DNA of 35,681 nt from contig JALORE010000095.1 in NCBI GenBank assembly GCA_025459125.1, forward strand, positions 1 through 35,681. Direction: 5' to 3'. The notes beneath the pieces are model-generated. The model did no database searches, was not told the origin of the DNA, and worked only from the letters and a program-made list of their open reading frames with translations. Within the stretch, counting starts at the first letter, position 1. The number at the start of each line of letters is the position of its first letter. Source of the DNA: Planctomycetota bacterium. Its GTDB lineage: Bacteria; Planctomycetota; Phycisphaerae; Sedimentisphaerales; Anaerobacaceae. Shown piece after piece: positions 3,263-7,558 of this stretch. Position numbers and translations under genes: made by a program.

Positions 3263-3793
3263 GTGGAGACCAAGTTCAACGTCTTCGAAATCCTTCAGAT
3301 CGCCGAGCAGGTAGAGCACAAAGGGGCCAAGTTCTATCTCAAGGCGGCCGAGCTATTTGTGGACCCCGACCTTCGGGATCTCCTCTACCGGCTGGCCACC
3401 TGGAAGGCCAAGCACGAGAAGGTCTGGGCCCGGATGCGGAAGCGCTTCTCCGAGAAGACGGGCGAGTTCGGCACGTTCGATCCGGACGACTACGTGCTCT
3501 CCAACCCACAAGTCATGTCGGGCCTGACGGCTTTCGGGATACGGCCGGAGGCGGCCGACCCCCTGACCGGCAAGGAGGACAAACGCCAGATCCTCAAGGT
3601 CGCCATCGAGCGAGCCAAGGAGGTCGTCATCTTCTATGAGGGGCTCAAGGACTTTGCCCGCGAGCCGGCCAGCAAGGACACGATCGACCGCATCATCCGG
3701 GAAGAGAATCGGCAGATCCACTTTCTGCAGGACGAGCTGAAGGCGGGCGCGGGGATCGGGAAGGCTGCGCATCCCCATCCGCCGGCGCCTTGA
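3263..3793 (+). CDS. Ferritin-like/rubrerythrin-family protein with eroded diiron site
   Basis: A 176-aa protein with the helix pattern of the short rubrerythrin-like (ferritin-like) family: helix A around EHKGAKFY (18-25), helix B around WKAKHEKVW (47-55), helix C around AIERAKEVVIFYEGL (114-128), helix D around EENRQIHFL (147-155). Family members usually bind two irons through an E, ExxH, E, ExxH arrangement and take part in peroxide or iron handling. Here the helix B glutamate before His51 is replaced by Trp/Lys, and the expected helix D histidine is Gln151 with His153 displaced, so the diiron site may be absent or altered. There is no rubredoxin domain. The start is a GTG with a purine-rich stretch (3251-3256) upstream. 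The 3' end overlaps the convergent permease gene by about 100 bases. The C-terminus is His/Pro-rich. Confidence 0.72.
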   Translation: METKFNVFEILQIAEQVEHKGAKFYLKAAELFVDPDLRDLLYRLATWKAKHEKVWARMRKRFSEKTGEFGTFDPDDYVLSNPQVMSGLTAFGIRPEAADPLTGKEDKRQILKVAIERAKEVVIFYEGLKDFAREPASKDTIDRIIREENRQIHFLQDELKAGAGIGKAAHPHPPAP

Positions 3794-5069
3794 CCGCGGC
3801 GGTCGGGCCCGGGCCGGAAAACTCGCCGGCTAACAGGTGCCCGATCGGGCGTAACGTATCGAACTGCATCAGGACAATGCGGAGCGCCGCCGTGATCGGG
3901 GCCGCCACGAACATCCCCACGATACCCCAGAGCAGGCCCCAGAAGGCCAGCGCCAGCAGGATCGTCACCGGGTGCAGGTCCAGCCCCTCGCCCATCAGCT
4001 TGGGCTCGATGATGTTGCCCAGGAGATTCTGAATGGCCCCGGGGATCGCCACCACGAGCACAATCAGCACCGGCGACGACGGGAACTGCACCACTGCGAT
4101 GGGGATCGGCAGCAGGGTCACGATCAGCGAGCCGATGGAAGGAATCCAGTTCAGCACGAAGGCGAGGATGCCGAAGACGCCGGCGAGCTTCAGGCCCAGG
4201 TGATCGAGCGTCAGCCACACCAACACTCCCGTGATCAGGGAGATGACCATGTGGATGCCGACGTACCGACGAATCTTCTGCACGACGTCCCGGTACATCT
4301 GCGAATGCTCGGTGTAGGGATTGCGGCCGGCCAACAGGAAAATGACGAAAATCGCGACAAAGCAGACGCCGGAGATCAACCCAAAGATCGTGCCGACCGC
4401 GTTCGTCAGAATGTAAAAGAGGTAATTCTTCAAATCGCGGACGAGCTCCTTCGTGTCGATCGGCCAGGCATGAGCCGCCGGCTTGACCGGCAGGGTGCCG
4501 GTGACGACCGCCCGGGACTCGTTGGGTTCTTGTGCCAACGGCTCACACCATGGGCGTACCCCCACCGCCGCGGGCGAGGCACCGTCCTTGACGACCGGAA
4601 AGACCGCGAAGGCCTCGGGTTCGATCGGTGGGGTATCCTTTACCGCTGCCGCCGGCACGGGCTTCGGCTCGTTGGGGCCCGCCGGCACCAGAGGTTTCTC
4701 CCGTGGATAGAGTTGCTCCACCGCATCGACCAGCTGGCCGGCCATCTTCTCGAAACTGTCGCTGTACTCGCGCGCCGTCGAGGTGATGGTCCGGGCGGCC
4801 TGTGCAACCAGCAGGGACATCACGGCGAGGATCGACAGAACCACGAGCAGCGTGATGACCACCGCGATCACGCGCGGCAGCCGCAGCCATTTGACCTGAA
4901 AATCCTCGATGGGTGCGACCAGGGCGACAATGAAGAGCGCCACGACAAAGGGAATCATGACCGCCCGGGTGTAGATCAAGGCCAGCGCCAGTGCCACACC
5001 GGCCAGAATCACCAGCGACGCGGTGATGATCCCGTTACTCTCATCCTTGCGGTTGTATGTCATGTCCAT
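3693..5069 (-). CDS. AI-2E/PerM family permease, copy B
   Basis: Polytopic membrane protein of the AI-2E transporter (PerM/TqsA/YdiK) family, 458 aa. It opens with two hydrophobic blocks (about 15-50 and 62-90), the first ending in VALFIVALVAPI. A long soluble loop (about 95-200) with a Pro/Ala-rich part follows, then the family's C-terminal membrane core. That core contains NWIPSIGSL, the conserved EPKLMGEGLDLHP segment and the FWGLLWGIVGMFVAAPITA signature. Some members export autoinducer-2, others Na+/H+ or unknown substrates, so the substrate is not assigned. It lies 60 bases downstream of a close paralogue on the same strand and probably shares its transcript. An in-frame ATG two codons later (5061-5063) is a possible alternative start. 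The Pro/Ser/Ala-rich C-terminal tail overlaps the convergent ferritin-like gene. Confidence 0.82.
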   Translation of the reverse strand: MDMTYNRKDESNGIITASLVILAGVALALALIYTRAVMIPFVVALFIVALVAPIEDFQVKWLRLPRVIAVVITLLVVLSILAVMSLLVAQAARTITSTAREYSDSFEKMAGQLVDAVEQLYPREKPLVPAGPNEPKPVPAAAVKDTPPIEPEAFAVFPVVKDGASPAAVGVRPWCEPLAQEPNESRAVVTGTLPVKPAAHAWPIDTKELVRDLKNYLFYILTNAVGTIFGLISGVCFVAIFVIFLLAGRNPYTEHSQMYRDVVQKIRRYVGIHMVISLITGVLVWLTLDHLGLKLAGVFGILAFVLNWIPSIGSLIVTLLPIPIAVVQFPSSPVLIVLVVAIPGAIQNLLGNIIEPKLMGEGLDLHPVTILLALAFWGLLWGIVGMFVAAPITAALRIVLMQFDTLRPIGHLLAGEFSGPGPTAAVKAPADGDAQPSRSPRPPSARPAESGSADSLPG

Positions 5070-5129: not shown

Positions 5130-6566
5130 TTACATATTGACGGCCGGAGCTGCTCCCCCGCCGACCGGATGTGCGGGTTTGGAGAAGTGACCGGCGAGCA
5201 GATCCGCGATGGGCCGGAACGTGTCGAATTGCATCAGCACGATGCGGAGCGCGGCCGTAATCGGCGCCGCCAGAAGCATCCCGACAATCCCCCAGAGCAA
5301 TCCCCAGAATGACAGGGCCAGAATCACCGAGATCGGGTGCAGATCGAGCCCCTCGCCCATCAGCTTGGGCTCGACGAGATTGCCCAGGATGCTCTGGATC
5401 AGCCCGGGGATCAGCACCGCCAGCATGATCGGCCAGGGCGCGTAGTGGAACTGCGCCACGGCGATCGGGAGCGGAATCAAGGTGGCGATGGTCGGGCCGA
5501 CGGAGGGAATGAACCGCAGCAGGAAGGCCAGGACCCCGAAGACGCCGGCCAAAGGCAGGCCCAGGATAGTAAAGGTCGCCCAGATCAACACGCCCGCCGC
5601 CGCGGACACCAGCACCTTGGTGCCCACGTAGCGCCGGATCCTCCGCACGACATCGACGTAGACCTGCGAGTGCTTCGCGTACGGGTTGCGGCCCGCCAGC
5701 AGGAAGATCACGAAGAGGATGACCAGGACCACACGGGAGATCATGCCGAAGATCGTCCCGAAAGCGTTCGTCACGATATTGAAGATGTAGTTCTTCAGGT
5801 CCTTCACGATCTCCTGGGTATCGATGCGCCACTTCTTCTTCGTCTCCTCCTCCGGGGGCGCTGCGGGCTCCGCCGCGACCGTCGCGACGGGAGTCACGGC
5901 CGCGGTTGGGGCCGGAACCACTTGGTCAGGTTCCTTTGCGGGAGGCGCGGCGCGGGGCCGGGCCTCCAGGATCACCGGCGCGACCGTGTCCTTGACGACG
6001 GGAAACAGCTCGAACGCCTCCGGCGGGGCCTGCGACGGCTGCGCCTTCTCGGTGCTCTCCCCCTTCGTAGCCTTCTCGGGCGCCGGGGTCAACGCCGGGG
6101 CCGGCGTCGGCGTGGGCGCCGGTTTGGGCTCGTTGGGCGACGCTACGGGCTTGGGCTCCTCCTGGGGGTACAGGTGCTCCACCTGGTCCAGAAACCGCTG
6201 CGCCATTGTCTCGAAGCTGGCGCTGTAGTCGTTCGCCGTGTAGACGATCGTCCGACTGGCTTCCGCAACGAACAGCGATACCAGCGTGATGACGGACAGC
6301 GCCACCAGCAGTGTCACGATGACCGCGATCACCCGCGGCAGCCGCAGCCACTTGACCTGAAAGTCCTCGATGGGCGACACCAGGGCCACGATGAAGAGGG
6401 ACACCACAAATGGCATCATGATGGCCCGCGTATAGATCAGGGCCGCTGCCAGCGCCACCACGGCCAGGATGGCCAACGACACCGTGATCAGCCAATTCTG
6501 CTCGCTGTGCTCCGGCCCCGCGTTTGTCTCCTGGTTTCTCAAGTTGATCATAGCCGTCCCATCCAC
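5130..6566 (-). CDS. AI-2E/PerM family permease, copy A
   Basis: Paralogue of the adjacent downstream permease with the same layout: two N-terminal hydrophobic blocks, a soluble loop, then the AI-2E membrane core with EPKLMGEGLDLHP and FWGLLWGIVGMLLAAPITA. Long stretches, such as the segment from IEDFQVKWLRLPRVIAV, are identical or nearly so between copies, pointing to tandem duplication. The clearest difference is the soluble loop, which here carries a long Pro/Ala/Thr-rich stretch (about residues 145-235). Translation may start at GTG 6566 or at ATG 6551, where GGATGGGA lies seven bases upstream; the latter would give 473 aa. It lies 32 bases downstream of the RNase HII-like gene, so the three minus-strand genes are probably one operon. 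Confidence 0.82.
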   Translation of the reverse strand: MDGTAMINLRNQETNAGPEHSEQNWLITVSLAILAVVALAAALIYTRAIMMPFVVSLFIVALVSPIEDFQVKWLRLPRVIAVIVTLLVALSVITLVSLFVAEASRTIVYTANDYSASFETMAQRFLDQVEHLYPQEEPKPVASPNEPKPAPTPTPAPALTPAPEKATKGESTEKAQPSQAPPEAFELFPVVKDTVAPVILEARPRAAPPAKEPDQVVPAPTAAVTPVATVAAEPAAPPEEETKKKWRIDTQEIVKDLKNYIFNIVTNAFGTIFGMISRVVLVILFVIFLLAGRNPYAKHSQVYVDVVRRIRRYVGTKVLVSAAAGVLIWATFTILGLPLAGVFGVLAFLLRFIPSVGPTIATLIPLPIAVAQFHYAPWPIMLAVLIPGLIQSILGNLVEPKLMGEGLDLHPISVILALSFWGLLWGIVGMLLAAPITAALRIVLMQFDTFRPIADLLAGHFSKPAHPVGGGAAPAVNM

Positions 6567-6598: not shown

Positions 6599-7558
6599 TC
6601 AACGACACCGGATCAGCCGATGCCGGTCGATCTCGATGTGGGGCAGACGCGTGCGCAGCTCCTCGACGAAGCGCGTGCCGTCCGTCCAATAGCCCGCGGT
6701 CGGTGCGAGATTCCCGTCCATGGCGGTGAAGTAATCGTTCTGGCACTCCATGAGCAGCTCGCGGAGGTACTTGCAGACCATGGACGCCAGCGCTACCGGC
6801 AGATACCGATCGTCGGCCTTGATCTCGAAACTCAGCCGGACCGTCCGCTCACTCGCTCGCAACTCGTAGTCGCTGGTTTCCGCCCCTTCCTGCACGATCC
6901 GCAGGTCCATGCCGGGAAAGCTGCGCAGCAGGTTCTCCCGGTAGTGCGCCCGCCCCCCCTGCCGGTCCACTTGAATCTGGATGTCATCACGTGGGAACCT
7001 CTCGAGAAGACCTTGTACCAGTTGGGTCACCGCAATGAACAGGACCTGGGCTTTGTTCTTCACGCGGCCGACCAGCGTGTTGTAATAGGCGACGTCCAGG
7101 CAGCCGCTCTGCAGGTGCACCAGCCTGGCCCCGTGGGCGGCGAGGTCCTCCGCGAACACCTGGGAGGCGATCTTCAGATCGGCCAGCCCACGTGCCAGTT
7201 CGCACTGCTGCATCTTCTGATACCACGGGTACTCCCGCAACCGCGGCAGACAATCCGGGCACAGCAGGGTCAGGCACTCCTCCAGGTTGGCCGGGTCTTT
7301 CCCTGCGCATTGCAGCACGGCCAGGACCGTGCGTTCGAGATGACCCAGACCCTCCGCGCGGTGGTACGCCTTCTTGCTGTCGGCGATCAGGAGCCGGCCG
7401 GCGAGGTGCTTGCGGGTCCTGCCCACACTGCGGCCCAGGGTCTCCCAGAGGTCGACTGGGGCGAGTTCCGGCCCCACTGAGAACGCGCTGCACGAGACGA
7501 TCAGCGGCCCGAGTAACGGCCCAAAGCCCGCCTCATCTATCCCAGCCAGAATCGCCAC
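6599..7558 (-). CDS. Divergent RNase HII-like protein
   Basis: A 319-aa protein with the core motifs of type 2 RNase H, which cuts RNA in RNA-DNA hybrids. It begins with GIDEAGFGPLLGP (6-18), has DSKK (60-63), VDRQGG (197-202) and KADDRYLPVALAS (248-260). These supply candidates for all four acidic catalytic residues: Asp8, Glu9, Asp198 and Asp249 or 250. Two features are unusual. The conserved GRG motif that reads the 2'-OH at an RNA-DNA junction is GFG (11-13). The protein is also about 100 aa longer than bacterial RNase HII, mostly through a helical-looking insert between the DSKK and third-aspartate motifs. The start is a GTG with AGAGG seven bases upstream. It heads the operon with the two permeases. 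It may act on another nucleic-acid substrate; no bacterial counterpart of this length is known to me by name. Confidence 0.7.
   Translation of the reverse strand: MAILAGIDEAGFGPLLGPLIVSCSAFSVGPELAPVDLWETLGRSVGRTRKHLAGRLLIADSKKAYHRAEGLGHLERTVLAVLQCAGKDPANLEECLTLLCPDCLPRLREYPWYQKMQQCELARGLADLKIASQVFAEDLAAHGARLVHLQSGCLDVAYYNTLVGRVKNKAQVLFIAVTQLVQGLLERFPRDDIQIQVDRQGGRAHYRENLLRSFPGMDLRIVQEGAETSDYELRASERTVRLSFEIKADDRYLPVALASMVCKYLRELLMECQNDYFTAMDGNLAPTAGYWTDGTRFVEELRTRLPHIEIDRHRLIRCR

Follow-up and report, generated by a model that had tools for sequence, protein, structure and literature searches.

Most of the Planctomycetota genomes sampled here carry a type-2 RNase H whose GRG motif mostly reads GFG or GYG, and this GFG/GYG family is probably a divergent housekeeping replacement for RNase HII, with an activity predicted accordingly. 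The member from which we started is encoded by the ORF at 6599-7558 of the window (the whole 35,681-nt stretch of DNA that was analysed, contig JALORE010000095.1 of a planctomycete), which starts with GTG and encodes a type-2 RNase H of 319 aa. We base this reading on the computed fold, conserved residues, separate clade and distribution; if it is right, the protein would be catalytically active, would act specifically at RNA-DNA junctions and would serve to remove ribonucleotides from DNA.

The 319-aa protein matched Pfam RNase_HII (PF01351) at 1.1e-11 (45.5 bits; curated cut-off 25.8), and it scored far under the equivalog cut-off for RNase HII (TIGR00729: 38.9 bits, cut-off 123.3) and under that for RNase HIII (TIGR00716: 11.3 bits, cut-off 161.2). 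An AlphaFold2 model computed with 38 aligned sequences had a mean pLDDT of 93.9. Foldseek matched this model to M. jannaschii RNase HII (1eke_A) at 1.3e-9, and the VIA comparison gave Z = 18.0 to 1eke (rmsd 2.6, 203 residues aligned), 17.3 to RNase H3 with bound hybrid (4py5), 16.7 to human RNASEH2A, 11-13 to bacterial RNase HII and about 6 to the next fold. As modelled, the fold is that of a type-2 RNase H. The position of the start codon is common to close relatives of the ORF, which use GTG, ATG or TTG, and the gene is under purifying selection: against the relative L052, NG86 dN was 0.15 and dS 0.77, and the differences (53/39/123 by codon position) fell mostly on third positions.

The initial annotation had described the protein as half as long again as bacterial RNase HII, which holds: at 319 aa it is approximately 1.4-1.6 times as long as E. 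coli RNase HII (198 aa) and the archaeal chains (213-230 aa). The long insert that it had proposed stands as extra length but not as a single insert, since in an alignment with 12 RNase HII sequences (four archaeal, seven planctomycete and one human) the additional residues lie mainly at 30-48, 70-89, 100-145 and 217-237. In the model the main insert region (residues 70-145) forms helices, and it carries the conserved PW of 'YPWY'. Candidates for all four catalytic acids had also been noted, and D8, E9, D198 and D249 indeed align with human D34, E35, D141 and D169. We had considered E267 (in 'YLRELL') as the fourth acid, at an RNase HIII-like site, and dropped it when human numbering pointed to D249 (in 'KAD').

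Table 1. Features of the planctomycete type-2 RNase H gene in the window, with the residues or segments that they encode.
Feature	Position	Strand	Basis
Type-2 RNase H, planctomycete GFG/GYG family, 319 aa	6599..7558	-	ORF, Pfam RNase_HII, 42 relatives, pLDDT 93.9
Catalytic D8-E9	7532..7537	-	119/119 members; aligned with human D34 E35
G11-F12-G13, predicted 2'-OH sensing loop (RNase HII GRG; RNase HIII GXG)	7520..7528	-	alignment
Extra segment, residues 30-48, absent from RNase HII	7415..7471	-	alignment with 12 RNase HII sequences
D60-S61-K62, DSK motif	7373..7381	-	119/119; human D67 S68 K69
Main insert region, residues 70-145	7124..7351	-	70-89 and 100-145 absent from RNase HII (alignment)
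D198-R-Q-G-G-R-A-H-Y206: third catalytic acid and family signature DRxGGRxxY	6941..6967	-	D198 116/119, Y206 119/119
Extra beta-hairpin segment, residues 217-237	6848..6910	-	alignment; model strands 218-224, 228-235
K247-A248-D249: fourth catalytic acid, human D169	6812..6820	-	E66 D53 among 119 members
K263..R266-E267: phosphate-contacting Lys (human K183), loop-holding Arg (human R186)	6758..6772	-	each 119/119
G289-Y290..D293..R296: loop with junction tyrosine (human Y210, T. maritima Y163)	6671..6694	-	alignment
R317, second loop-holding Arg, human R235	6608..6610	-	114/119, 5 gaps

To look at conservation we assembled relatives in two rounds. A scan of genome contigs with patterns from the 319-aa protein, which reach close relatives only, gave 42 loci, 41 of them planctomycete-titled and one (L086) titled only 'bacterium'. 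The first family alignment, A1, used 37 of these 42 and left out L053, L056 and L061 (judged near-duplicates), L087 (internal stop) and L090 (fragment). The enlarged alignment had 121 rows, which became 119 distinct members once loci fetched twice (L122/L172 and L123/L214) were removed. Among these 119, D8, E9, G11, the DSK motif, Y206, K263, R266, E267, G289 and D293 are invariant, while Y290 (118/119), G13 (117/119), D198 (116/119) and R296 (120/121, counted on rows that include the two duplicates) are nearly so; position 249 is always acidic (66 Glu, 53 Asp). The motif of the window's protein does read GFG for GRG, as had been pointed out (G11-F12-G13), and across the 119 members X of GXG is Tyr in 70, Phe in 38, Leu in nine and Val and Met in one each, never Arg or Lys; these X-type counts come from a biased sample, the members beyond A1 having been taken partly as best-scoring matches and partly by choice across families. 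In the 12 RNase HII sequences compared, X is Arg in ten and Lys in two. The window's protein is no local oddity: its family is a variant of type-2 RNase H that extends across the phylum and has a non-basic residue at X. Separately, three members (L189, L198 and L210) have Gly for the third catalytic Asp at position 198 (GKxGGR) and L209 has Ser at 290; judging by these replacements, the four may be weakened or altered enzymes, and the three with Gly may even be inactive, which speaks against a uniform reading of the family.

What does the missing arginine mean? The initial annotation had taken it to be needed for recognising ribonucleotide-DNA junctions, and this is contradicted by what is reported for T. 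maritima RNase H2 (PMC3025331). There the 2'-OH contacts Y163 and the main-chain amides of three loop residues, G21, R22 and G23, and R141 and R182 stabilise the GRG loop. In the same work the Y163F mutation seriously reduced activity on all substrates tested. R22A had unaltered activity on most of them, but it cleaved less at one DNA-RNA junction and was slightly less active on a single ribonucleotide. Since R22A is largely active, RNase H3 functions with GXG, and the family keeps the junction tyrosine and both loop arginines, the GFG change takes away what matters least in the loop and leaves the sensor otherwise intact. By this mechanism the backbone of the G-F-G loop and Tyr290 would sense the 2'-OH at an RNA-DNA junction, and R266 and R317 would hold the loop in place. 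The Phe (Tyr or Leu in relatives) would occupy the minor-groove place taken elsewhere by Arg or Lys, and an aromatic residue at X would probably fine-tune recognition without deciding it. The family offers a natural test of the importance of the GRG arginine.

We then asked where the family occurs. Among near relatives, the protein was found in 52 of 61 genomes (its own included), or 29 of 30 when only good assemblies are counted. A family profile matched 222 of 246 sampled Planctomycetota genomes and 131 of 134 good assemblies; one match, in G126, proved to be the RNase HII of that genome, which was moved to the family-negative set, leaving the family in 221/246. Eight of the 246 genomes have a gene over the TIGR00729 cut-off, and with G081, whose 224-aa product reads as RNase HII with GRG and was counted as such though under that cut-off, nine have a genuine RNase HII. 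RNase HII occurs in none of the 221 family-positive genomes and in nine of the 25 family-negative ones (Fisher p = 2.6e-10, which is too optimistic, as the nine genomes span eight family codes and may go back to a single deep ancestor). The remaining 16 family-negative genomes are also without RNase HII, which counts against the replacement reading, though some of them are incomplete assemblies. RNase HIII was detected in 71/246 genomes, 64 of them with the GFG/GYG family, and showed no association with it (six RNase HIII rows that were RNase HII cross-matches were removed from this count). RNase HI was detected in 159/246, 143 of them with the family. The presence of RNase HI and that of RNase HIII are largely mutually exclusive, both being found in only 15/246 genomes (p = 1.7e-19, kinship uncorrected), and at the thresholds used, which may miss divergent RNase HI, neither was detected in 28 family-positive genomes. 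The window's genome carries RNase HI in addition to its GFG gene; the initial annotation had raised the matter of another rnhB there, and we found neither a second PF01351 gene nor any other RNase H2 in this genome, which is 94% complete. This absence is one of the two points, normal activity being the other, that the initial annotation had named as marking simply a divergent housekeeping enzyme. Because the overlap with RNase HII is zero, and genomes with RNase HI or RNase HIII may have or lack the family, the family fills the place of RNase HII and not that of RNase HI or RNase HIII.

Our first table of PF01351 matches had suggested that standard RNase HII coexists with the family. Reading the genes removed this suggestion: L132-L154 and L023 are RNase HIII, with GKGD in most and RNase H3 chains as best match. 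RNase HII among the strong PF01351 matches is confined to L125-L131, and G106 and G081 were added afterwards; the set used for sorting consisted of archaeal RNase HII and RNase H3 chains, without bacterial RNase HII. The RNase HII of some Planctomycetota lineages (L125-L131, L222 and L223) is of archaeal type, with GRG (GKG in L131) and scores over or near the TIGR00729 cut-off; against the whole PDB, L126 found archaeal chains first (6.3e-47), with E. coli at 8.2e-14. A second odd RNase H2/H3-like protein was seen in L204-L208 (family code f49), with ORFs of about 450-500 aa that include a DETGTGE-like motif; by eye, its N-terminal part resembles the N-domain of RNase HIII. All five genomes also carry the GFG/GYG family. 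Two copies of the family gene were found in G057, from the same order as the window's genome (contigs C229 and C307). A tblastn search against phages and plasmids found no relatives. Three IMG/VR viral contigs do encode relatives (L244, L245 with DENGYG, and L246 with DECGFG), so that viruses may carry the family.

Trees of 64 and 47 rows each resolved three groups: the GFG/GYG family (100/99 in both), RNase HIII (100/98 and 100/95) and RNase HII, comprising archaeal, planctomycete and E. coli sequences and, in the second tree, human (91/91 and 90/88, not starred). The separate lineage that the initial annotation had suggested is borne out by this clade, by the score under the equivalog cut-off and by its spread through Planctomycetota, and on sequence grounds a lineage beside RNase HII and RNase HIII is supported. 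The stem of the family is 1.3-1.7 changes per site long in the two trees, and this distance from RNase HII, together with the score under the equivalog cut-off, weighs against the replacement reading. As to origin, the family might have evolved fast and in direct descent from the archaeal-type RNase HII that survives in some planctomycetes, that is, it might be an orthologous RNase HII that merely resembles a new lineage. We put this at slightly under an even chance: both best trees place the family outside the RNase HII clade, yet a grouping of the family with planctomycete RNase HII in one clade is not rejected by an AU test (p = 0.39), the two are mutually exclusive in distribution, and in profile comparison (hhalign) the archaeal-type set is the best match of the family (134.9, against 116.3 for RNase HIII and 55.7 for E. 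coli RNase HII, a single sequence). Such a descent is compatible with the mechanism proposed above. The family shares with archaeal/eukaryal-type RNase H2 (RNASEH2A; TIGR00729) the fold, the DEDD acids (in the window's protein), DSK, the GxG loop, the junction tyrosine with its adjoining G and D, and the equivalents of R186 and R235; it differs in GFG/GYG for GRG, in allowing Glu at the fourth acid, in its extra segments and in its low score and separate clade. Bacterial RNase HII (rnhB, E. coli type) belongs to the same superfamily and likely has the same genomic place, and it resembles the family less than the archaeal type does, both in VIA Z and in hhalign score.

Could the family do something else? 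The fold might have moved to another substrate or job, e.g. as a structure-specific or RNA-processing nuclease whose specificity is defined by the hydrophobic X and the inserts. Such a shift, which the initial annotation had also entertained, fits the fact that all 119 members have lost Arg/Lys at X, the invariant motifs peculiar to the family (DRxGGRxxY, Y231), the conservation of the inserts, the long stem and the retention of the family alongside RNase HI or RNase HIII. We nevertheless consider it unlikely and find no support for it, as the family has kept the junction tyrosine, both loop arginines, DSK and the acids, and its gene is found in place of RNase HII, an exclusivity that a new function does not predict. 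It is more improbable still that the family acts like RNase HIII or RNase HI, cleaving RNA/DNA hybrids and Okazaki primers and not single-ribonucleotide junctions. It does resemble RNase HIII (rnhC) in its GXG loop, in Glu at the fourth acid in about half of the relatives (66/119), in the VIA match to 4py5 and in a profile match of about 116, and a grouping beside RNase HIII is weakly supported (90/88, not starred). Against this, the family keeps the junction tyrosine, which RNase HIII lacks according to PMC3025331, and forms a clade of its own; the window's protein has Asp and not Glu at 249 and is without the N-terminal TBP-like domain, beginning at the first core strand (residues 2-10), with 2d0a aligning only from residue 90; and 64 genomes have the family together with RNase HIII, 143 together with RNase HI. 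The replacement of RNase HII thus remains our preferred reading. A stronger form of it is conceivable, though we are inclined to doubt it: a third class of type-2 RNase H may have taken over ribonucleotide removal in most of the phylum after its minor-groove reader was rewired (an aromatic or aliphatic residue for Arg/Lys), with an added helical segment of its own, and would hence have a measurably different junction or sequence preference.

Replacement would account for what has been reported of planctomycetes. In a 2007 survey the one planctomycete genome is placed in Group E (PMC1950709), and from the descriptions of Groups A-D, F and G given there, Group E should by elimination have RNase HI only; a 2025 paper lists rnhB among the genes that Planctomycetota largely lack (PMC11929135). 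A candidate for this missing enzyme is the GFG/GYG family, which scores far under the equivalog models of RNase HII; if the reading is true, the family would settle how planctomycetes remove ribonucleotides from DNA. Our literature searches found no paper describing the family, and the terms ribonuclease, RNase H and rnh are absent from the main text of the P. limnophila essential-gene paper (PMC10632474).

Gene neighbourhood yielded no functional partner, as the conserved neighbours (AI-2E transporter, monooxygenase and MutS2 genes) are shared among close relatives only. In the window, two AI-2E family transporter genes in tandem (3693-5069 and 5130-6566, both -) adjoin the gene, an arrangement kept in close relatives only. 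Finally, an ORF of 6698 aa at 15578-35674 (-) comes close to the end of the contig and encodes an RHS repeat as well as Ig-like, cadherin-like, CARDB and PKD domains; its product is a predicted giant surface or secreted protein.
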